Translations under genes and position numbers: made by a program
The notes under the pieces: generated by a model
Told to the model about the DNA's origin: nothing
Seen by the model: only the letters and a program-made list of their open reading frames with translations
Database searches by the model: none
Origin: Chryseobacterium sp.
Lineage (GTDB): Bacteria; Bacteroidota; Bacteroidia; Flavobacteriales; Weeksellaceae
Length of the DNA stretch: 10,739 nucleotides
Direction: 5' to 3'
Assembly (NCBI GenBank): GCA_003852805.1
Contig: RDDY01000229.1
Coordinates: forward strand, 1 to 10,739
In this document: positions 1,314 through 10,739 of the stretch, piece after piece
How the letters are laid out: every line of letters begins with the position of its first letter
How positions within the stretch are numbered: the stretch's first letter is position 1

Positions 1314-1623
1314 CGTTTTTGTGTTGTGAACGAGGTGGCGTAAGAAATTTACAGGATTTTTAAACGTCCAATTCACAGTATGCAATAATTAAGAAGCAAT
1401 TTATTTGGGTGTTAGATTGTGAAGCTGTTTAAAGTTTAAGGTTAACATCGTTTATATTGTAAATAATTGTTACATTAGCAACAAAACACAAATGATGATA
1501 AGTATTTGCAAAACGACTATTTGTTCAGACGTCTATTGTTTGTTCTCGAGTTAACATAATGACGCGCCCTGTTTGGGAATTCACCGTTTAACCGATCATG
1601 TACTCAGCAATACAACAGCATCA
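1314..1623. other. AT-rich intergenic region before cas6
   Basis: No gene is supported here. The stretch is AT-rich and marks the junction between housekeeping genes and the CRISPR-Cas locus. It must hold the cas6 promoter, but no clean TAnnTTTG box with a -33 partner was found; TATTGTTTG (1534-1542) is close but one base too long. A gapped match to the CRISPR repeat on the minus strand at 1365-1395 is described among the findings. Confidence 0.6.
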
Positions 1624-2406
1624 ATGACTTTGAAAATTACCCTTTCCAGTAATTCATCATCCCGTCTAATTCCGATAAATTATGCGTATCCGCTGAGCGC
1701 AGCGGTATACAAAATATTGCAGAAAGGCGACGTGGAATATGCGGAATTCCTGCACGAGAAAGGCTACGGAAAAGGCTTCAAGTTTTTCACCTTCTCGCAG
1801 TTGAATGTGCCGTTTAAAATTGTGGACGATCGGCTGAAATTGTTGACTGATGAAGTCGATTTTTCAATCAGCTTTCATTTGCCACAAGCAGCCGAAAGTT
1901 TTGTAAAAGGGTTATTTCAAAGTGAACGCATAGAGATCGCCGATAAAAAATCAAAGGTAAGTTTTACGGTAAAGTCGGTGGAGAGTTTGGGGAATCCGTT
2001 GATGCCCCAGTCTGAAAATGAAATTGTAAACTTAGAGCTAAAGCCGATGTCGCCGGTGGTTGCGGGAATTCAAAACGAGCGCGGACACTACGACTTTTTG
2101 GCTCCCGATGACCCGAGATTTGCTTCGGCACTAATCTACAACTGGCGCAGCAAAATTGCCGCTTGCTACGATGACCGGATTGCAGACAGTGCATTGTTAA
2201 TGTTAGAAATTATACCAAAAAAGTATGCATTTAAATCGCGGTTGATGACCATAAAAGCGGACACGCCACAAGAAACCAAAATCCGCGGCTGGATGAACTT
2301 CGGACTAGAAGTAACGGCTGAGAGAAGGTTTGTGGAATTGCTGATGAATGCGGGGGTTGGGGTGTACAACTCGATGGGGTGTGGGATGGTGCTCAGTGCG
2401 ATATAA
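1624..2406 (+). CDS. cas6: CRISPR-associated endoribonuclease Cas6 (type I-B)
   Basis: Cas6 cleaves the pre-crRNA inside each repeat, leaving the 8-nt 5' handle (here ATTGAAAT) on mature crRNAs. The 260-residue length is typical. The C-terminal glycine-rich loop (AGVGVYNSMGCGMV, residues 243-256) is the family hallmark that contacts the repeat RNA. The N-terminal half has the usual FLHEKGYGKGFKFFTFSQL-like segment; His44 there is the likely catalytic residue. The ATG at 1624 gives the standard start (MTLKITL); an in-frame TTG at 1573 would add 17 unconserved residues. It is separated from cas8 by 180 nt and is probably transcribed on its own. This matters because its product would also be needed to process the minus-strand pseudo-crRNA encoded just downstream, whose transcript runs antisense into the cas6 3' end. 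Confidence 0.93.
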   Translation: MTLKITLSSNSSSRLIPINYAYPLSAAVYKILQKGDVEYAEFLHEKGYGKGFKFFTFSQLNVPFKIVDDRLKLLTDEVDFSISFHLPQAAESFVKGLFQSERIEIADKKSKVSFTVKSVESLGNPLMPQSENEIVNLELKPMSPVVAGIQNERGHYDFLAPDDPRFASALIYNWRSKIAACYDDRIADSALLMLEIIPKKYAFKSRLMTIKADTPQETKIRGWMNFGLEVTAERRFVELLMNAGVGVYNSMGCGMVLSAI

Positions 2407-2477
2407 TAAATTGTCCCTCAACCTTTTGTAATTATTTTCAATTCAAAATTTGTACGATTCGCAGGAAAAGGGACAGT
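2400..2477 (-). ncRNA. candidate regulatory pseudo-crRNA (CreR/CreA-like), single degenerate repeat plus spacer
   Basis: On the minus strand a degenerate CRISPR repeat (2464-2435) matches the array repeat at 21/30 positions without gaps. Repeat positions 6-13 (AATCGTAC) and 21-29 (GAATTGAAA) are fully conserved, so the crRNA 5' handle would be ATTGAAAA instead of ATTGAAAT. The Cas6 hairpin is kept (see the repeat entry). A pseudo-spacer starts at 2434 and reads TAATTACAAAAGGTTGA. Its first 17 nt match the cas8 promoter at 16 positions. A promoter facing this way lies at 2513-2482, giving a start near 2477. The 3' end is unknown; no convincing second repeat was found. Known parallels are the CreA and CreR RNAs of type I systems, which guide Cascade to a promoter by partial complementarity. 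Function here is inferred. Confidence 0.75.
2435..2464 (-). repeat. degenerate CRISPR repeat in reverse orientation
   Basis: Reading the minus strand, positions 1-30 are CTGCG, AATCGTAC, AAATTTT and GAATTGAAAA in sequence. Against the array repeat the differences are confined to positions 3-5, 14, 16-18, 20 and 30. In the array repeat C13, C14, A15 pair with T19, G20, G21 around a 3-nt loop. In the degenerate copy C13, A14, A15 pair with T19, T20, G21, so the only altered stem pair (C14-G20 to A14-T20) still pairs. Loop bases 16-18 have all changed. This pattern suggests selection for Cas6 recognition rather than simple decay. Confidence 0.85.
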
Positions 2478-2481
2478 ATTG

Positions 2482-2513
2482 CAAAAATAGCAATTAGCGG
2501 CTAAAAATACAGA
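2482..2513 (-). promoter_or_regulatory. promoter of the pseudo-crRNA
   Basis: TATTTTTG on the minus strand (2489-2482) is a perfect TAnnTTTG -7 box. TCTG (2513-2510), one base off the -33 TTTG, lies exactly 20 bp upstream. Transcription would begin about 12 nt before the degenerate repeat. It faces away from the cas8 promoter. Confidence 0.6.
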
Positions 2514-2532
2514 TCATATATAATAAGCAGCT

Positions 2533-2552
2533 TCAACATTTTGTAATTACGG
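2533..2552 (-). promoter_or_regulatory. predicted pseudo-crRNA target (protospacer and PAM) on the cas8 promoter
   Basis: The minus strand from 2549 reads TAATTACAAAATGTTGA, matching the first 17 nt of the pseudo-spacer except at position 12. The 11 PAM-proximal nt match without a gap. The three bases 5' of it are CCG (2552-2550), a plausible type I PAM that differs from the AAA flanking the pseudo-spacer itself. The match contains the complement of the TTTTG -33 box, so bound Cascade would occlude the cas8 promoter. Confidence 0.7.
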
Positions 2553-2569
2553 AATAATATTTATATTTG
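2539..2569 (+). promoter_or_regulatory. promoter of the cas8-cas2 operon
   Basis: TTTTG (2539-2543), then 18 bp, then TATATTTG (2562-2569) is a near-consensus Bacteroidota promoter. The start of transcription would fall near 2575, about 12 nt before the cas8 ATG, so there is essentially no untranslated leader and no room for a separate small toxin RNA. Confidence 0.75.
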
Positions 2570-2586
2570 CTTTTCAACTTTAAGAC

Positions 2587-3996
2587 ATGGACAAAGAATT
2601 GTTAACAGCTACTACAGGCGACCCTTTTGCCGACACAGGCGGTCTCGTGATAAAACATCTGTGGTCGTTACCACATTTAAGGGATAAGGGTATATTGGAG
2701 TTGATAGAATATGCAGCAAAAATCTATGTGAATAACTGGAACGGGAAACTTCATGCATTTTTTCTTAACTCTACCATTACGCAGCCTGCATTTAAAGGCC
2801 AAAAGAAGATTGATGAGACTTTAAAGTTTTATCGAAGCCTTCTGGATGAGTCGAGGGATTCCCAAATAGGATATTGTAGAATCAGCGGCAGAGAAACGAA
2901 GCTATTTGCGGCGGGGCGCGATAACCATATCCTTTCAGGTTCGGGAACCTTTGTCAACTTTCACCATAGTTTTGAGTCCGGTCTGTTTTTATCGAAAGAG
3001 ATTCTCATCAGGATGTTTTTCGTTCCACTTGGCTTGGTGCAGTTGAGTGATAAGGTTGCGATGCTTACGAGCAACGATCAACAGGTTACAGAATCCTTTG
3101 TTAAGAGGAACTGCGCTCAAAATTTACAGGCGCTCAGTAGCGGAATTGCTGAAGGGGTCCTTAAAAGCGAATTTAACAACCCTGCAAATGCTTTATTCAA
3201 TTTTGCGGATGATCTTAATACGCGCCTTCAGCGTTTGATTGATGGGGATGAGGATGAACTGTGGAAAGCGGCGAACATTACCTTGAATCTCTATCATTTT
3301 ACCAACTTTGGTGCAAGTCCTGAAGTTAACTTATATGTTTTAGAATCTACAGTATTTAAGTTTTACGTTTTTTGTAACAGCATAAAGGTTAAAAAAGATT
3401 GGAATAGATTTCTGCGGAGCCATTACAGGAATTCTAAGGTCAAGGGTATAGAATACATTGAGTTGACAGAAGAATGGAGAGGCAAGGATCAAAATTTCGA
3501 CTTTTCTGCTTACAAGACTTGGCGCAATAGTGTGCTGGATAACCTTTTAAATGGCAAATCCATTCTCGGGGCTATTTTAAAATGGAATGTAGACCATTCT
3601 TTCCCTTTTATTATTGTCGAAGTATATCAAACAATCGTTAGAAATATGGAAAAAAGAACAATTGAAAAAATAAAACAGATTGCGGATTACATCGTCGTAA
3701 ACCGTGACACTGATTTTATCACCAAGAGTATCAAGCGCCTTAATGGTGAAAAATCTGCCCATGGTATGCGGCAATTTATTATTAAGCTAAATGGTGAAAA
3801 TTATCAAAACGGCGGAGCAGATCCTCTCATTACTGTGCAGGACTACGCCGATTATCTCTTCCCTGACGGAGCAAACTGGAAGGAAGTGCGCGATGTGTTA
3901 TTGATTGCCATCTACGAGAAACTCCATGAAGAGAACAAATTTGTAGATGCACCAATTTTGGAAGATGAAGAATCGGAAATATCCAATCTAAACTAA
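2587..3996 (+). CDS. cas8b: Cascade large subunit Cas8b1 (Cst1 family)
   Basis: Cas8 is the large subunit of the type I-B Cascade; it recognises the PAM and helps open the target duplex. The 469-residue protein starts with the Cst1-type segment GDPFADTGGLVIK (residues 11-23). The identification rests on this segment, on length and on its position before cas7(cst2), cas5 and cas3. Cst1 proteins are commonly described as CXXC-CXXC proteins; here only CRIS (Cys97 to Ser100, in YCRISGRE) remains at the expected first knuckle and no CXXC is present anywhere, so the zinc site seems lost. Residues 300-460 are charged and helical in appearance, fitting the C-terminal helical bundle. The gene is first in the operon behind a strong promoter; cas7 follows after 5 nt. 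It is AT-rich (19 of 60 G+C at 3301-3360). Confidence 0.87.
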   Translation: MDKELLTATTGDPFADTGGLVIKHLWSLPHLRDKGILELIEYAAKIYVNNWNGKLHAFFLNSTITQPAFKGQKKIDETLKFYRSLLDESRDSQIGYCRISGRETKLFAAGRDNHILSGSGTFVNFHHSFESGLFLSKEILIRMFFVPLGLVQLSDKVAMLTSNDQQVTESFVKRNCAQNLQALSSGIAEGVLKSEFNNPANALFNFADDLNTRLQRLIDGDEDELWKAANITLNLYHFTNFGASPEVNLYVLESTVFKFYVFCNSIKVKKDWNRFLRSHYRNSKVKGIEYIELTEEWRGKDQNFDFSAYKTWRNSVLDNLLNGKSILGAILKWNVDHSFPFIIVEVYQTIVRNMEKRTIEKIKQIADYIVVNRDTDFITKSIKRLNGEKSAHGMRQFIIKLNGENYQNGGADPLITVQDYADYLFPDGANWKEVRDVLLIAIYEKLHEENKFVDAPILEDEESEISNLN

Positions 3997-4001
3997 TAGT
4001 T

Positions 4002-5096
4002 ATGAATTTGAAAACTCAAGGCTTTATCCTTTTGGATGTAGATGTTGTTGCCTTAAACAACGCAGGAAAAAACAATAAAAGTAATTTTGACAATGCCGTC
4101 GCGACGAAAAAAGTGTATAAAAACGGCAGAGCTTATACCTATGTTTCAGGGCAAGCATGGAGATACTGGTGGCGCGAAGCATTACAAAAAAATCACGGAT
4201 GGGAGCTGTCTCCCGTCACGCGGGAAAGCAAAATTGCATTCACGGCGGCAAACCCTGTAAAATATGCTGACGATGACATCTTCGGCTATATGAAAGCTGC
4301 CAAAGATGTTATTGTTGATGAAAATGGAAATCCTGTTTTAAAAAATGGCCGGGAACAAACTGAGAATGTTACTGTGACACGCGTCTCGCCCTTGAAAAAT
4401 TCGGTAATAGTCTCGGTAGGATCTACCCAACCTGTTGAAAACTGGTCAAGCATGGCTCGGCAAGAAGGAGATTCGGTTCCTTATGTGAAAGAGGAATATA
4501 GTGCAATAATGAAAGGAATGTTTTCACTCGACTTGGAACAGGCGGGAACATTTTCGAATTATAACAAAACAGGTTTCAAAAACCTGACCGAGAAGCTGAA
4601 AGAAGAAGCCTTAAAAAATGGCGCTTCTGAAATCGAAGACTCCTATGTTAAAGACAGTAAAGGAAATAGACAAAAGTTGGTGCGGCTACAGCCTGAAATA
4701 AGAGTAAAGCGGATCGAGGATACCATTAAAGCATTAAAGTCAATATCTGGCGGCGCAATGCAAACGAACAATATGGGTGATGTCACCCCCAAATTTATCG
4801 TTTTAGCCACTACAAATACAGGCAATCATCCGTTTTCGCACATTGCTTCAAGTGAAGGAATGAACAGTGAGAAAGTATACCTGAATGTCAACGGAATTAA
4901 GGAGGTGCTAAGAGATTATAACGATCAGTTTGTCGGTATAGTATTTATCGGACGAAGAAGTGGTTTCTTGGACGAGTACAGTGACGAGCTGAGAGCGCTG
5001 GAGTCATTGGGTGATGGCTACCCGGCTGTCAAAATCGGCTCCGTAAACGAAACCATTGACAATTATTGTGAACAGTTAAAAAGTCAGCTTAAATAA
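4002..5096 (+). CDS. cas7: Cascade backbone subunit Cas7 (Cst2/DevR family)
   Basis: Cas7 polymerises along the crRNA spacer and forms the Cascade backbone. At 364 residues it is within the size range of the DevR/Cst2 group. Typical features are an N-terminal RRM-like strand (GFILLDVDVVALN, residues 7-19), the AYTYVSGQAWRYWWREAL segment (residues 44-61), and the acidic DDDIFGYM motif (residues 90-97). The segment around residues 108-125 (VDENGNPVLKNGREQTEN) looks like a loop insertion. It starts 5 nt after cas8 and its TAA overlaps the cas5 ATG by one base (TAATG), implying translational coupling. Confidence 0.94.
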   Translation: MNLKTQGFILLDVDVVALNNAGKNNKSNFDNAVATKKVYKNGRAYTYVSGQAWRYWWREALQKNHGWELSPVTRESKIAFTAANPVKYADDDIFGYMKAAKDVIVDENGNPVLKNGREQTENVTVTRVSPLKNSVIVSVGSTQPVENWSSMARQEGDSVPYVKEEYSAIMKGMFSLDLEQAGTFSNYNKTGFKNLTEKLKEEALKNGASEIEDSYVKDSKGNRQKLVRLQPEIRVKRIEDTIKALKSISGGAMQTNNMGDVTPKFIVLATTNTGNHPFSHIASSEGMNSEKVYLNVNGIKEVLRDYNDQFVGIVFIGRRSGFLDEYSDELRALESLGDGYPAVKIGSVNETIDNYCEQLKSQLK

Positions 5097-5770
5097 TGGA
5101 GCTATATTCAATAGATATCAGAAGCTGGACTGCCAGCTTCCGATATCCGAATATTATCAGCGGGATACAGCCAACGCTGGAGGTTCCCCCGATCAGCACT
5201 GTTTTGGGTTTGATCAATGCTGCTGCGGGTTTTTATATCGAGCATGAGGCGCTTTCTCTCGGATATTATTTTGAATTCCAAGGCAAAGAAATGGATTTGG
5301 AAACGATATACATGATGGACACTGCCAAAGGAAAGCCCAATAATGCTGCCAAGTCCAATGTTATCAAAAGAGAATTTTTATTTGATAACCTTTTAAGAGT
5401 CTACACCGATGATAAAAAGGTTGCCGATTACTTTAAATCGCCTGCTTATCCTTTGGTCTTAGGCCGAATGAATGATTTGGCCTCTGTAGATCGGACGAAG
5501 ATTGTGAGCAGGAAGTTGGAAAAAGTGGAAAACGCCGGCAATATCAGAGGTCAGATTATTCCTTTCAGCAATAACTATTTGCCGGGTGTAATCCAAGCTT
5601 TGCCGAAATATTTTACCGATGAAATTCCGCGGAGGAATATCGGTACGGAATCATATTCAGTAGTGAACCATCGCGCAAAGACTATGAATAGTAAACTAAG
5701 CGCGTTTCGCGATGAAATTGGAGGCAAGACGGTTGACATCTTTATGCATGAACTGGATTTCAGAAAATAA
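5096..5770 (+). CDS. cas5: Cascade subunit Cas5 (type I-B)
   Basis: Cas5 caps the crRNA 5' handle and contacts Cas8 and the first Cas7. The 224-residue protein has the family N-terminus: a beta strand followed by SWTASFRYPNIISGIQPTLE (residues 10-29), then VPPISTVLGLINAAAG (residues 30-45), the conserved proline-rich turn and glycine of the RAMP fold. The C-terminal part is shorter and less conserved, as usual. The start codon overlaps the cas7 stop by one base; cas3 begins 11 nt after the stop. Confidence 0.92.
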   Translation: MELYSIDIRSWTASFRYPNIISGIQPTLEVPPISTVLGLINAAAGFYIEHEALSLGYYFEFQGKEMDLETIYMMDTAKGKPNNAAKSNVIKREFLFDNLLRVYTDDKKVADYFKSPAYPLVLGRMNDLASVDRTKIVSRKLEKVENAGNIRGQIIPFSNNYLPGVIQALPKYFTDEIPRRNIGTESYSVVNHRAKTMNSKLSAFRDEIGGKTVDIFMHELDFRK

Positions 5771-5781
5771 AAATTTTAAGT

Positions 5782-8097
5782 ATGGAAATTTTGGCAAAAT
5801 CTGATCCACAGATAACATTGAAACAACATATTGACGATTGTCTTCTGATATTGGTTCATCTGCGAAATTCGTTTCCGAAAATTCCGACAATTGTTGATGA
5901 GAATGATTTCTGGGACATTGTAAGGCTGGCGATCATTACACATGATTTAGGAAAGGCACACCGCGAGTTTAATAAGCTTTTACGTGCTTTGCCTAATGAG
6001 TGGTATGGACAAAGACATGAATTATTCTCGGTGCCGTTTGTGGACGGCTTGACTGTTGACAATGAAACCAAGAGGTTGTTGAAGCTGGCAGTGGCAGGCC
6101 ACCATAAAGATTTTGACAAACTACAGAAAGAATACATAAATAAAGCGTACGCTTCAGGTTATAACGATGAATTTGGTACCGAAGGCCTATTTGATTTTGA
6201 AGATGAATTTGCGAAAATAGATAAAGAAAGTGTTGTTGTATTGTTGCAGACCTATTTTGCGACAACGGTAGATTCGTTCACGGTTCACTCGCCGAGGAAG
6301 TTGATATCGTCGTATCTGGTAAAAGCTGACAACGGTGAATTTAATCTTTACAGTCAGAACTATTTAAAAACGCTTTTATTGCTGGGCGCGTTAAAACACT
6401 GTGACCATTTAGGATCTGCGCAAGTCCGAGCGATTGAGAATCTTGACGGCACTTCGTTTGAGTTTTTAGGGAAAAAGAGAAAACAACTGCTTTCAGAAAA
6501 CAAAGATTTGTATCGGCACCAGTTAACCAGCTCCAAAACCTTAGGCAATGTTATTCTCACAGCGCCGACAGGTTCGGGAAAAACTGAGAGTGCTATGCTT
6601 TGGCTGCAAAAACAAATTTCAGAATCTGGCCAAGGCCGCGCATTTTATATTCTGCCTTTTACCGCTTCTATCAATGCGATGTATGAACGCCTGTCTTCTG
6701 ATCAGAATGACCTCGGTGCTTCGAAGGTGGGTATGATACACGGTAAACTGCAGGATTATCTGTATGATTACTTCGATGATCTTCAATACGCAGACGCTAA
6801 AAAAGAGGCCATCAAGGAGATTCATGACAAATTCAGGATTCTCGCCATGCCTTTGAAAGTCATCACTCCTTTTCAGCTGATTAAACATCTTTTCGGTTTA
6901 AAAGGATTTGAACAAGGAATTCTCGAATGGTCGGGCGGTTATTTTATTTTCGACGAGATCCATGCCTATAGCCCTGACGTCTTTGCTCAGATAAAGGTAT
7001 TTTTAGAATATGTCACTCATCATTTTCATGGAAAGGTGTTTATCATGACGGCCACCATGCCGACTTTCCTAAGAAAGGAATTAGAAGAATCTGTCGGTGG
7101 CTTTACAGCAATTTCTGCGGATCAAGGTTTATATAATGCATTTAATCGCCACCGTGTCTTACTGAAAGATAGATTATTGTCGGATAATCTTGGCATTATT
7201 AAAGATGACCTTAACGCGGGCAAGAAAGTGCTGGTAGTATGTAATACGGTACGACAGTCACAAATGGTTTACGACCAATTAAAACAAAATGCTTCCCGCT
7301 CTGTTTTGCTTCACGGAGCATTCACAGGAGAAGATAGAACACGCCACGAAAGAATATTGAAAGAGGGCGAAAAAGATTCTGAAAACCCTATTCAACTCTT
7401 AGTAGGCACACAAGCTATTGAAGTTAGCTTGGATATTGATTACGACATCATCTATACCGAACCCGCACCAATTGATGCTCTCATACAACGGTTCGGAAGG
7501 GTTAATCGCAAAAGGGAAAAAGGAATTTGCACGGCTGTGGTTTTCAGATCAGCCAACGCCAGCGATAAATATATCTATAATCCTGAATTAGTTTCAAGAA
7601 CTATTGAGTTATTTGAGTCACTAAACAATAATGGTGGGCTTGTAGAAGAGTTGAAAATACAAGATTATATAGATTTCGTTTACCCGTGGTGGTCTGAGAA
7701 AGACAAGCAGGCTTTCGACCAAATTTACCATTTGCTTAAGTATTCAGTTGAGCATGAATTAGCACCATTTTTACATTCAAAAAACAGAGAAGAAGAATAT
7801 TATAAACAGTTTGATGGGATTAAAGTATTGCCTGTAAAACTAAAAGATCGCTTCGAAAAGTATTTATCAGGCTTTGATTTTATAGGAGCAGAGCGTCTGA
7901 AAGTGCAAATCAGAAAAAATAAATTTGCACAACTTATCGCGGAGAGCGATCAAAACTTATATAAAACAACGTATCATTTCGATTCGGTAAACGGCAAACT
8001 CATATCTGTGCCGTATTGGGTTTTGACAAAGAAATACAGTGAAGAGTTGGGTTTGCTTTATGACGAGCAAGAAGAATGGAACGCTGAATTGCTGTAA
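5782..8097 (+). CDS. cas3: CRISPR-associated helicase-nuclease Cas3 (HD plus DEAD/DEAH helicase)
   Basis: Cas3 is recruited by target-bound Cascade, nicks the displaced strand with its HD domain and degrades DNA by 3'-5' translocation. The 771 residues hold an N-terminal HD nuclease domain: His16, His54-Asp55 in THDLGKAH, His79, and His107-His108 in GHHKDF. A superfamily 2 helicase core follows: Walker A APTGSGKT (Lys267), DEIH (391-394), TATMP (423-427) and QRFGRVNR (569-576). All catalytic motifs are intact, so interference should work. The C-terminal accessory region is present to residue 771. It is the fourth gene of the operon, 11 nt after cas5 and 4 nt before the cas4 ATG. Confidence 0.96.
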   Translation: MEILAKSDPQITLKQHIDDCLLILVHLRNSFPKIPTIVDENDFWDIVRLAIITHDLGKAHREFNKLLRALPNEWYGQRHELFSVPFVDGLTVDNETKRLLKLAVAGHHKDFDKLQKEYINKAYASGYNDEFGTEGLFDFEDEFAKIDKESVVVLLQTYFATTVDSFTVHSPRKLISSYLVKADNGEFNLYSQNYLKTLLLLGALKHCDHLGSAQVRAIENLDGTSFEFLGKKRKQLLSENKDLYRHQLTSSKTLGNVILTAPTGSGKTESAMLWLQKQISESGQGRAFYILPFTASINAMYERLSSDQNDLGASKVGMIHGKLQDYLYDYFDDLQYADAKKEAIKEIHDKFRILAMPLKVITPFQLIKHLFGLKGFEQGILEWSGGYFIFDEIHAYSPDVFAQIKVFLEYVTHHFHGKVFIMTATMPTFLRKELEESVGGFTAISADQGLYNAFNRHRVLLKDRLLSDNLGIIKDDLNAGKKVLVVCNTVRQSQMVYDQLKQNASRSVLLHGAFTGEDRTRHERILKEGEKDSENPIQLLVGTQAIEVSLDIDYDIIYTEPAPIDALIQRFGRVNRKREKGICTAVVFRSANASDKYIYNPELVSRTIELFESLNNNGGLVEELKIQDYIDFVYPWWSEKDKQAFDQIYHLLKYSVEHELAPFLHSKNREEEYYKQFDGIKVLPVKLKDRFEKYLSGFDFIGAERLKVQIRKNKFAQLIAESDQNLYKTTYHFDSVNGKLISVPYWVLTKKYSEELGLLYDEQEEWNAELL

Positions 8098-8101
8098 TAC
8101 C

Positions 8102-8629
8102 ATGCCTCTCCTCGCCACACATATCAATTACTTTTTTGTTTGTAAGCGTAAGCTTTGGCTGTTCTCCAACGGCATCAATATGGAGCACACCTCCGACACG
8201 GTGTACGACGGGAAAATGCTGCATGAGAACAGCTATCCGCAGCGTGCGCAGAAGCATAATGAAATGGAATTGTCGGCACAGTATGGCGACATTGAACTAA
8301 CAGGCAAAATCGATTTCTACGACGCCGCCACCAAAACCATCCACGAAACCAAACGCAGCGACAAGGTGGAAACCGCACACGAGTGGCAGGCTAAATTTTA
8401 CATTTGGCTGCTGGAACTGAACGGCATCTCCGACGCTACCGCAACGCTGGAATACCCGAAACTTCGGCAAACCAACCAAGTGCAATTTACAGAAACCGAT
8501 CGACAACGGCTGCAAGCACTCGTCCACGAAATCCGCGAAATGATTGCATCCGAAAACTGTCCGCCAAGAATCAACAGTAAAATTTGCAAGAGTTGCAGCT
8601 ACTTTGAGTTGTGCTATGTGGGTGAGTAG
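8102..8629 (+). CDS. cas4: CRISPR adaptation exonuclease Cas4
   Basis: Cas4 trims and orients prespacers by their PAM together with Cas1-Cas2. The 175-residue protein has the four iron-sulfur cysteines: Cys14 (FVCKRKLWLF) and the C-terminal trio Cys162, Cys165, Cys171 (CKSCSYFELC). RecB-type nuclease motifs are visible: GKIDFYD with the metal-binding Asp, HETKRSD with the catalytic Lys, and QAKFYIWLL. The ATG at 8102, 4 nt past the cas3 stop, is preferred; an earlier in-frame ATG at 8039 would overlap cas3 by 59 nt and add unconserved residues. The final codons GGT GAG TAG belong to the first unit of an octamer repeat array, so the natural C-terminus may have been altered by an insertion. GC content is clearly higher than in cas8-cas3. 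Confidence 0.94.
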   Translation: MPLLATHINYFFVCKRKLWLFSNGINMEHTSDTVYDGKMLHENSYPQRAQKHNEMELSAQYGDIELTGKIDFYDAATKTIHETKRSDKVETAHEWQAKFYIWLLELNGISDATATLEYPKLRQTNQVQFTETDRQRLQALVHEIREMIASENCPPRINSKICKSCSYFELCYVGE

Positions 8630-8664
8630 AGGTGAGAGGGTGAGAAGGTGAGAGGGTGAGAGGG
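8621..8664 (+). repeat. tandem octamer array GGTGAGAG, left flank of the four-helix-bundle gene
   Basis: Units GGTGAGTA (8621), GGTGAGAG (8631), GGTGAGAA (8639), GGTGAGAG (8647) and GGTGAGAG (8655) follow each other with a 2-nt offset after the first. The cas4 stop codon lies inside the first unit. The complementary array is at the other end of the next gene. Confidence 0.88.
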
Positions 8665-8688
8665 CAGAAAAAGATAAAAAATACAGAG

Positions 8689-9048
8689 ATGACAAATGCC
8701 GAGTTTAATGACTCTTTTCGTTTAAGGACGCGGAATTTTGCAGTGGGCGTTCTCACTTTTCTTGGTACATTGCCAACGAACACGGCGACACGGGTTATTG
8801 CATACCAACTCGCAAAATCGGCCTCGTCGGTCGGTGCCAATTTTCGCGCATTCTGTAGAGGGAGATCGAAAGCGGAAAAATTCTCCAAAATATGCATTGT
8901 TGTGGAAGAAGCTGACGAATGCGAGTACTGGCTGGAAATCATACGCGAAATGGATTACGGTGTCAAAACTGAGGTGAACCATTTTCTGACTGAAGCTTTA
9001 GAAATATTAAAAATTTGCCAAAAAATAAAAACCGCATTCTCACCATAA
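8689..9048 (+). CDS. four-helix-bundle protein (23S rRNA intervening-sequence protein family)
   Basis: The 119-residue protein is all-helical in appearance and carries the family features: FRLRTRNFAVGVLTFLGTLP at the N-terminus, ATRVIAYQLAKSASSVGANFRAF in the middle and EEADECEYWLEIIREM towards the C-terminus. This family is found within 23S rRNA intervening sequences and as scattered copies in Bacteroidota chromosomes; relatives include the accessory protein of diversity-generating retroelements. The molecular function is unknown. The ATG at 8689 is preferred over an in-frame start at 8656, which lies inside the octamer repeats. The gene interrupts the usual cas4-cas1-cas2 order and is bounded by inverted octamer arrays, so it looks like an inserted cassette rather than a cas gene. 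Its last codons (TTC TCA CCA TAA) overlap the right array. Confidence 0.82.
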   Translation: MTNAEFNDSFRLRTRNFAVGVLTFLGTLPTNTATRVIAYQLAKSASSVGANFRAFCRGRSKAEKFSKICIVVEEADECEYWLEIIREMDYGVKTEVNHFLTEALEILKICQKIKTAFSP

Positions 9049-9092
9049 CTCACTTTCTCACTCTCTCACTCCTCTCACCCTCTCACTTTCCT
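9036..9092 (+). repeat. tandem array of TCAC-containing octamers, right flank of the four-helix-bundle gene
   Basis: TCAC recurs at 9050, 9058, 9066, 9075 and 9083, a period of 8 with one step of 9, in a C/T-only context. An extra TTCTCACC overlaps the preceding stop codon. CTCTCACC is the reverse complement of the left-array unit GGTGAGAG, so the two arrays form an imperfect inverted repeat around the gene. It ends 5 nt before the cas1 ATG. Confidence 0.85.
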
Positions 9093-9097
9093 CTGTC

Positions 9098-10102
9098 ATG
9101 AAAAAATCCTACTACCTCTTCAACGCCGGGCGCATGAGCCGTAAAGACAATACGCTGAAATTTGTGCCGATGGACAGCGACGGCCGTGAACTGACGCCCA
9201 AGTACATCCCCGTGGAAGCGGTGAGCAACCTGTACTGTTTTGGCGCCCTGGATGCCAACAGTGCGCTCTACAATTTCCTCGGCAAACAGCAGGTCAGCAT
9301 TCATTTCTTCGACTATTACGAGCATTACACGGGCAGTTTTCTCCCGAAAGAATATCTGCTCAGCGGCCGGGTGTTAATTCACCAGACTGAGCATTTTCTC
9401 AATCCGCTGCGCCGCGTGGCCTTGGCGCGCAAATTTGTGGAAGGTGCTGCCTTTAACATGCTGAAAAACCTGCGCTACTACGCTAACAGAGGAAAGGATG
9501 CCTCGGTGCAGATAGAGCGCATCGAATCCCTAACTGCGCAATTGCCGTTGCACACCGGCATCGATGCCATTATGGGCATAGAAGGCAATATCAGGATGTC
9601 GTACTACGAGGCGTTCGACCTCATCATCAATGACTTCAGCATGGGCAACCGTACCAAGCAGCCGCCGTCCAACGAGGTAAATGCGCTGATCTCGTTTATG
9701 AATATGATGTGCTATACGCTGTGTCTGGACATGATTTACCACACGCAGCTGAACCCCACCATCAGCTATCTGCACACGCCCGGCGAACGCCGTTTCTCAC
9801 TGGCTTTGGATTTAGCCGAGATTTTCAAGCCGATTTTGGTGGACAGAACCTTATTTTCGCTGTTGAACAAAAAGGTTATTCAGCCTAATGATTTCGACCG
9901 TCAGGTCAACTGTTGTTTATTAAAAGAATCAGGCAGGAAAAAAGTCGTCAAGGCTTGGGACGAGAAGCTCGGCGAAACCCTCAAGCATCGCAGTTTGGGC
10001 CGCAGTGTGAGCTATAAACATTTGGTGAAACTGGAATGCTATAAACTGGTGAAGCATCTGATGCAGATGGAAGAATACAAACCTTTTAAAGCCTGGTGGT
10101 AG
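9098..10102 (+). CDS. cas1: CRISPR integrase Cas1 (type I-B)
   Basis: Cas1, as a dimer pair bridged by Cas2, integrates new spacers at the leader end of the array. The 334-residue protein has an N-terminal beta domain (about 1-90) and a helical catalytic domain. Metal-binding residues are Glu162 in MGIEGNIR, His226 in SYLHTPGERR and Glu241 in DLAEIFKP, all intact. The ATG at 9098 follows the octamer repeat array after 5 nt, so its native upstream sequence has probably been replaced by the array. The region is GC-rich (35 of 60 at 9181-9240), unlike the interference genes. cas2 follows with a 1-nt gap. Confidence 0.96.
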   Translation: MKKSYYLFNAGRMSRKDNTLKFVPMDSDGRELTPKYIPVEAVSNLYCFGALDANSALYNFLGKQQVSIHFFDYYEHYTGSFLPKEYLLSGRVLIHQTEHFLNPLRRVALARKFVEGAAFNMLKNLRYYANRGKDASVQIERIESLTAQLPLHTGIDAIMGIEGNIRMSYYEAFDLIINDFSMGNRTKQPPSNEVNALISFMNMMCYTLCLDMIYHTQLNPTISYLHTPGERRFSLALDLAEIFKPILVDRTLFSLLNKKVIQPNDFDRQVNCCLLKESGRKKVVKAWDEKLGETLKHRSLGRSVSYKHLVKLECYKLVKHLMQMEEYKPFKAWW

Positions 10103-10103
10103 T

Positions 10104-10367
10104 ATGTATGTGATTTTGGTTTATGACATCGAACAGCGGCGCACGGCCAAAATGCTGAAACTGTGCCGCAAATACCTGAACTGGATTCAGAACAGCGTTT
10201 TTGAGGGCGAACTGACCGAGGTAAAGCTGAAAGAACTGGTGACCGCCGCGAAGCGCATTATGGATGAGGAGAGGGACAGCCTGATTATCTTCAGCAGCCG
10301 CCAGGAGAAATGGCTGGACAAACAGGTGATCGGCTGCGAGAAGAACGAGTTGACGAATCTGTTGTAA
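10104..10367 (+). CDS. cas2: CRISPR adaptation protein Cas2
   Basis: Cas2 dimerises to bridge two Cas1 dimers in the integration complex. The 87-residue protein starts with the family strand MYVILVYDIEQ, with Asp8 at the conserved position, followed by the ferredoxin-like fold elements (KMLKLCRKYLNWIQNSVFEGEL). The length is typical. It starts one base after the cas1 stop and is the last gene before the leader. Confidence 0.95.
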   Translation: MYVILVYDIEQRRTAKMLKLCRKYLNWIQNSVFEGELTEVKLKELVTAAKRIMDEERDSLIIFSSRQEKWLDKQVIGCEKNELTNLL

Positions 10368-10578: not shown

Positions 10579-10739
10579 CTTTTAATCGTACCACACTGGA
10601 ATTGAAATGTTTATAGGCGCTCGCGATGATTTCATGTACTAAACTTTTAATCGTACCACACTGGAATTGAAATAACCGTACTGCTGTTCCAGCACAAACT
10701 CGAAGCGCTCTTTTAATCGTACCACACTGGAATTGAAAT
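10579..10739 (+). CRISPR. type I-B CRISPR array, leader-proximal end, cut by the window edge
   Basis: Three identical 30-nt repeats lie at 10579-10608, 10644-10673 and 10710-10739. The repeat begins CTTTTAATCGTACC and ends GGAATTGAAAT, a typical I-B form with a weak CCA-CAC-TGG hairpin and an expected 8-nt handle ATTGAAAT. Spacers are 10609-10643 (35 nt) and 10674-10709 (36 nt). Neither spacer matches anything noticed in this window. The orientation agrees with the cas genes and leader. The array continues beyond the window. Confidence 0.97.

Follow-up and report, generated by a model that had tools for sequence, protein, structure and literature searches.

A degenerate one-repeat mini-CRISPR upstream of cas8b1 as a probable CreR-type regulator of a type I-B system in Chryseobacterium

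The type I-B locus and its degenerate repeat

The whole stretch of DNA analysed (10,739 nt), hereafter the window, is one entire contig of a Chryseobacterium sp. assembly that consists of 388 contigs and 2.16 Mb (2,157,639 bases). The type I-B locus on it runs from cas6 through cas8b1, cas7, cas5, cas3, cas4, a four-helix-bundle gene, cas1, and cas2 to a CRISPR array, all on the plus strand. The cas6 gene (1573..2406; TIGR01877) is given as the longest open reading frame, its true start may be downstream, and it lies upstream of the promoter that is considered below as the target, while cas8b1 (Cst1; 2587..3996; TIGR01908) is the first gene behind this promoter. It is followed by the type I-B effector and nuclease genes cas7, cas5, and cas3 (4002..8097; TIGR02585, TIGR01895, and TIGR01587), then by cas4, the four-helix-bundle gene, cas1, and cas2 (8039..10367; TIGR00372, TIGR02436, TIGR03641, and TIGR01573), and finally by the array (10579..10739), which the contig end cuts off after three repeat copies. 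A tRNA gene at 569-642, upstream of the cas locus, is the sole Rfam match in the window at gathering scores. The TIGR02436 gene (8630-9086) sits between cas4 and cas1 with inverted GTGAGAGG-type repeats on both sides, which gives it the look of an inserted cassette.

The cas8 of this locus was not detected in the five other genomes of a genus sample of six or in the 295 further genomes of a family sample of 296 (both at E ≤ 0.001), nor in the 394 further genomes of a class sample of 395 (E ≤ 1e-60), the own genome being included in each sample; in the phylum sample (395 genomes, own included; E ≤ 1e-30) three more genomes showed a cas8 match. Because the match is absent from the sampled genus, family, and class genomes, the cas locus may have been horizontally acquired, although these are genome samples only, another collection gave 77 loci, and absence from the samples is thus weak evidence. 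Almost all cas8 relatives that carry a name are from Bacteroidota.

According to the original prediction, a sequence on the minus strand between cas6 and cas8 resembles the array repeat without gaps, and this position is supported by the gene calls by TIGR families. The degenerate CRISPR repeat (psiR) CTGCGAATCGTACAAATTTTGAATTGAAAA (2435..2464, minus strand) agrees with the array repeat CTTTTAATCGTACCACACTGGAATTGAAAT at 21/30 ungapped positions, where the runner-up non-array site in the window scores 18/30. Both blocks described as conserved, AATCGTAC and GAATTGAAA, are intact at the array spacing and all nine mismatches fall outside them; the reported orientation opposite to the array, at a distance of about 8.1 kb, was also confirmed. 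Taken alone and window-wide, the repeat match is only moderately unlikely by chance, at least 21/30 being reached in 12/500 Markov sequences of 10,570 bases; for Markov sequences of 180 nt with intergenic composition the corresponding figure was 6/20,000. The two-block motif with up to two mismatches was found genome-wide (2,157,639 bases) only in psiR and in the three array repeats, and the reversed control pattern gave no match.

The last 8 nt of psiR (2442-2435, minus strand), ATTGAAAA, are intact and represent a putative 5' handle generated by Cas6. An ectopic degenerate repeat with an intact handle beside the cas operon is what is expected of a CreR element (see below), and this is what the gap contains. 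An ordinary CRISPR array with two or more near-identical repeats and spacers of 35-36 nt was ruled out, as there is one degenerate repeat only. The search for a second repeat in the window gave a best candidate of 7/10, which overlaps the cas6 end and is not convincing on a scale where loci with a clear second repeat score 10/10 and other loci 5-7.

The guide, its target, and the putative promoters

The spacer-like sequence that was predicted directly after psiR is indeed present there, and its match to the cas8 promoter, which had been missed, makes it more informative than predicted. This guide, TAATTACAAAAGGTTGAGG (2416..2434, minus strand), agrees at 17/19 positions with a target (protospacer) at 2531..2549 of the same strand (minus 2549-2531), 115 bp apart, which overlaps the cas8 promoter. 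Pairing begins with the base that directly follows the handle, and the only mismatches are at guide positions 12 and 18. In type I guides every sixth base is left unpaired, as known from Cascade structures, and the mismatches of the window guide are those of such Cascade-style pairing. The pairing of CreA at 1-5 and 7-11 (PMC8501985) agrees with this rule. The runner-up site for the guide 19-mer in the window reaches 14/19, and 17/19 was reached in 0/50,000 Markov controls of 121 nt. When a 17-nt guide pattern with N at 6 and 12 was searched in the genome, the exact matches were the guide and the target only; with two mismatches four further sites appeared versus 11 for the reversed control pattern. 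The target is flanked by the PAM 5'-CCG-3' (2550..2552, minus strand; TCCG at -4 to -1), the only CCG among the 28 pairs tallied below, where relatives mostly have CCA.

The target's near edge precedes the cas8 ATG (2587) by 38 nt. Inside the target lies TTTG (2540..2543, plus strand), a -33 motif of this promoter type and here the putative -33 element for cas8. At a spacing of 12 nt from the target it is accompanied by a putative -7 element, TATATTTGC (2562..2570, plus strand; consensus TANNTTTGY), which, taken as 2562-2569, is followed after 17 nt by the cas8 ATG. The arrangement of TTTG and TATATTTGC fits the -33/-7 promoter type of Bacteroides, whose -7 consensus TANNTTTGY is described as relatively conserved in Bacteroidota (PMC12632263). 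Another putative -7 element, TATTTTTGC (2481..2489, minus strand), was recognized by its motif on the guide side at a distance of 24 nt from psiR (box start to 5' end of the 31-nt stretch taken for the scan); it is plausible as the guide RNA's own promoter, and no clear -33 element was seen on this side. No terminator was found in the cas6-cas8 gap, and scanning it for sigma-70 promoters was of no help because Bacteroidota promoters are of another type.

The primary transcript may also be folded. A leader arm UGUCCCUU (2468..2475, minus strand) and a tail arm GAGGGACA (2412..2419, minus strand), the latter overlapping guide positions 16-19 and followed by an A/T-rich run, are predicted to form a stem of 8 bp, which would enclose psiR and the guide. 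The fold of this stem has a z-score of -2.65, with 1/200 shuffles as good, and the window leader-tail pairing beats all 54 cross-locus pairings.

Guide-target pairs in related loci

The comparison with relatives proposed in the original prediction was carried out on cas8-upstream regions. The cas8 alignment for the scan was built from the window protein and 69 of the 120 homologues listed out of 906 and gave 77 loci, of which L051 and L075 (cas8 start missing) and L007 (array inside the region) were dropped before counting, so that 74 loci and the window made 75 regions. The detection rule demanded the handle T[TC]GAAA together with pyrimidines at PAM positions -3 and -2; it was fixed after an initial inspection of these loci, and the controls were run under the identical rule. 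A guide with a matching upstream target was found in 29/75 regions, window included, in comparison with 0-1/75 in each of ten shuffles and 0/75 in each of three cross-locus rotations; the hits are partly non-independent, with similar guides in L009, L012, L015, and L017. When the PAM rule was not applied, in an earlier scan, a similar locus set was obtained together with some pattern-unlike hits, and 9/380 shuffled regions gave any hit. With plain scoring the own target reached at least 12 for 23/129 guides versus 6/774 cross-locus trials. These data can be considered strong comparative support for the guide-target arrangement.

Under the same rule no element was detected in 46/75 regions, among them those of L004, whose cas8 is the nearest in the set (71% identity), and L006 (68%); it is present in L005 (68%) and L079 (64%), and the region of L007 (65%) contains array-repeat matches only. 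The 28 relatives with a pair span several Bacteroidota groups and also include the Chlorobiota-labelled L014, the SAR324-labelled L068, and the Helicobacter cetorum-labelled L047, which is a metagenome bin and perhaps mislabelled. If the bin of L068 is right, its pair is perhaps outside Bacteroidota; this locus has CTA as the PAM and leader-tail pairing stronger than in any other. In L004 a plus-strand repeat-like sequence lies about 350 nt before cas8, with a DUF433 gene after it, and the search gave no guide-target pair there.

The pairing pattern was examined by scoring without positional favour in 24 pairs from 23 loci (including a second L073 pair, probably due to chance): mismatches occurred at 25/57 of the 6n positions and at 7/359 elsewhere (Fisher 2e-18). 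Over 28 pairs, where L025 with its plus-strand guide was excluded and L018 is represented by the weaker, minus-strand target of its two, matches numbered 28 at each of positions 1-5 (position 1 being demanded by the detection rule), 14 at position 6, 12 at position 12, 20 at position 17, and 9 at position 18. Identity is thus high from the first base after the handle and drops after about base 17. In front of the target the handle agrees at bases -5 to -2 in 0-2/28 pairs and at base -1 in 5/28, and the near absence of a match at -5 to -2 is as self/non-self discrimination needs. Bases -9 to -6 agree in 12-16/28 pairs, which perhaps reflects A/T-richness.

The PAM over the 28 pairs was CCA in 21, TCA in three, CCT in two, CCG in one (the window), and CTA in one, which makes CCA the likely PAM of this Cas8b1/Cst1 group. 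To read the PAM from spacer targets, array spacers of the relatives L069, L056, and L073 were compared with 50,697 phage records and gave no match. A Bacteroidota genus to be compared here is Petrimonas. In a published table the I-B PAMs include CCA, CCN, CCT, and TCA, and the I-B entry for Petrimonas is TTTA (PMC8482600).

The -7 boxes recur as well (27 loci; L025 and L048 excluded). The motif TANNTTTG was found within 40 nt beyond the target in 21/27 loci, where shuffles gave a mean of 1.5 and a maximum of 6 and random segments of the same regions a mean of 2.3 and a maximum of 9; on the guide strand, the 60 nt upstream of psiR contained it in 17/27 (shuffles: mean 2.2, maximum 7). In two loci, L018 (-80/-70 from cas8) and L067 (-607/-612), one guide has two overlapping targets, one on either strand and both with a TCC PAM, and such a guide could place two Cascades on one promoter.

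The anatomy of the element varies among the 29 loci. The start of a second repeat is perfect (10/10) in ten of them, at 16-29 nt into the guide, scores 8-9/10 in four, and 5-7 in 15, including the window with 7/10. Leader-tail pairing, counted without L025, exceeded about 94% of cross-locus pairings in 8/15 loci without a second repeat versus 1/13 with it (Fisher p 0.016, the cut-off picked after the data were seen), and the stem is not evident in the other 7/15. Pairing above 98% of cross-locus pairings was obtained in 6/28 loci versus 0.56 expected, and own and cross-locus energies had means of -9.1 and -6.2 kcal/mol (p 0.002), a modest shift. These figures hint at a stem that takes the place of the second repeat.

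In L005, L012, L015, L017, L032, and L035, whose targets are 240-300 nt upstream of cas8, the interval holds a small open reading frame (51-69 aa as cut). The six align, with 22-49% identity to that of L015, and have ten homologues in a large protein set (E ≤ 0.001), some of which are apparently these same proteins; Pfam (E ≤ 0.01) gave no match for the five of the six that were scanned (not that of L032). Since the frame continues into cas8 in L015 and L032, the product may be an N-terminal Cas8 domain, or an accessory protein, rather than a guarded toxin. Other, unrelated-looking frames (48-137 aa) lie between target and cas8 in L009, L014, L079, and L048. Over ten small frames Pfam (E ≤ 0.01) found no match in 8/10, only a sub-threshold DUF6816 for that of L014, and DUF433 for that of L004.

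Probable autorepression and its alternatives

CreR, a cas-regulating RNA, was reportedly introduced by Liu et al. in 2023 (Cell Host Microbe, doi 10.1016/j.chom.2023.08.005). According to later papers, CreR is a crRNA-like RNA from a mini-CRISPR, partly complementary to a cas promoter (PMC12737573, PMC13131331, and PMC12948488), and effector-dependent CreR autorepression is reported in types I-B, I-E, and V-A (PMC13131331). The window element is likewise a mini-CRISPR whose guide is partly complementary to its own cognate cas promoter beside a PAM (17/19, CCG, and the putative TTTG/TATATTTGC), and it differs from these systems in its Cas8b1/Cst1 of the Bacteroidota kind and in the single psiR, which has no clear second repeat and whose transcript would be closed by the predicted leader-tail stem. 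Judging from sequence, it is very probably a CreR-type one-repeat mini-CRISPR, whose RNA would direct the system's own I-B Cascade to the promoter of cas8 and keep the cas8-7-5-3-4-1-2 genes down. Points that count against this reading are the CCG of the window, the TTTA listed for Petrimonas, the 46/75 regions in which no element was detected, L004 among them, and the lack of a clear -33 box on the guide side and of a terminator in the gap.

The proposed cycle would begin with a short RNA driven by the promoter with the putative -7 box at 2489-2481 (minus strand), as its motif suggests. Cas6 would cut psiR 8 nt before the guide and leave the handle ATTGAAAA, and Cascade would take up the guide RNA in competition with array crRNAs, by analogy with known CreR. 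The guide can then pair over about 17-19 nt, as read from the sequence, beside CCG at 2549-2531 and across the putative -33 element, where the bound Cascade would presumably block RNA polymerase. The chromosome would not be cut because the pairing is probably too short for Cas3 attack. In one I-B system crRNAs of up to 26 nt repress and longer ones cleave (PMC10551041); the about 17-19 nt of pairing lie below this value, which is defined by crRNA length. Being upstream of the targeted promoter, cas6 would stay outside the feedback loop. Free Cascade would thus reduce the making of new Cascade, and the repression would be lifted by anti-CRISPRs or by plentiful crRNAs; array crRNAs are known to relieve CreR repression by competing for Cascade (PMC12737573).

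The original prediction combined CreR with CreA of the CreTA module. The former half is supported by the degenerate mini-CRISPR, the Cascade-guide-like sequence, and its cas8-promoter target; the toxin-antitoxin analogy is not supported for this window. It would make the guide an antitoxin RNA that silences a toxin gene (creT or creP) and renders the cas locus addictive. The build of psiR followed by guide, with one repeat and in the cas6-cas8 gap, is shared with H. hispanica creA of type I-B, and partial pairing at 1-5 and 7-11 beside a PAM is described for the CreA of the H. hubeiense relative (PMC8501985 and PMC9458426); small frames between target and cas8 in some relatives could also be counted in favour, except that the frame of L015 and L032 runs on into cas8. 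However, CreA silences toxin RNA, whereas the cas8 promoter is the only exact genomic target of the window guide, and because only 17 nt separate the putative -7 box from the cas8 ATG no toxin gene fits, which renders the antitoxin reading highly improbable. That the sequence is a decaying relic, namely, an old repeat-spacer unit or failed insertion that is functionless now, could be argued from the degenerate repeat (21/30), the unusual CCG, and the 46/75 regions without a detected element, but the repeat mismatches avoid AATCGTAC and GAATTGAAA, those of the guide are confined to 12 and 18, and guides vary by locus yet keep the match to their own target (rotations 0/75); decay is accordingly very improbable.

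A plain duplication of the promoter, that is, a direct repeat beside which the repeat-like sequence is coincidental, would explain guide and target on one strand at 115 bp, and agreement at -9 to -6 in 12-16/28 pairs is above that of the target-adjacent bases, although it may reflect A/T-richness. Such a duplication would yield neither mismatches at every sixth base nor identity that runs from base 1 to about 17 when -5 to -2 match in 0-2/28 pairs, and it is to be regarded as extremely improbable. The probability is close to nil for a Racr-like or self-inhibiting decoy, in which the RNA titrates Cas6 or Cascade and promoter pairing is secondary: phages are known to have solitary repeat RNAs with an inhibitory effect on CRISPR-Cas (PMC10651486), but a decoy needs no target, and target, PAM, and promoter position recur (29/75 regions).

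Within the CreR-type reading a more specific variant for Cas8b1 systems can be put forward only tentatively and is rather unlikely as a whole. The leader-tail stem would replace the second repeat, end transcription, and fix the guide at about 16-19 nt, Cas6 cutting would open the stem, and the guide length would enforce "repress, do not cut"; in a subset of loci the guide would also control the small protein or domain at the cas8 front.

A further parallel is tracr-L, the long-form tracrRNA of type II-A (PMC11417352). The likeness to the window is a natural guide whose short pairing brings an effector to its own cas promoter, which is thereby repressed in the case of tracr-L; tracr-L works with Cas9 and a tracrRNA isoform, the window with Cascade and a mini-CRISPR. 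The literature search returned no paper on CreR in Bacteroidota among the matches listed, nor the original CreR paper, and therefore a first report is not claimed. Self-regulating guides are a known kind, and it is well supported that the window represents a new case with parallels in related loci.

The element offers a feedback loop of a type I-B system that is concrete enough to be tested, together with up to 29 natural guide-target pairs, in which positions 1-5, 7-11, and 13-17 are paired, positions 6, 12, and 18 are variable, and the match ends at about 17 nt. Such pairs may be of use for repression tools in Bacteroidota and for the study of the evolution of CRISPR dose and anti-CRISPR sensing.
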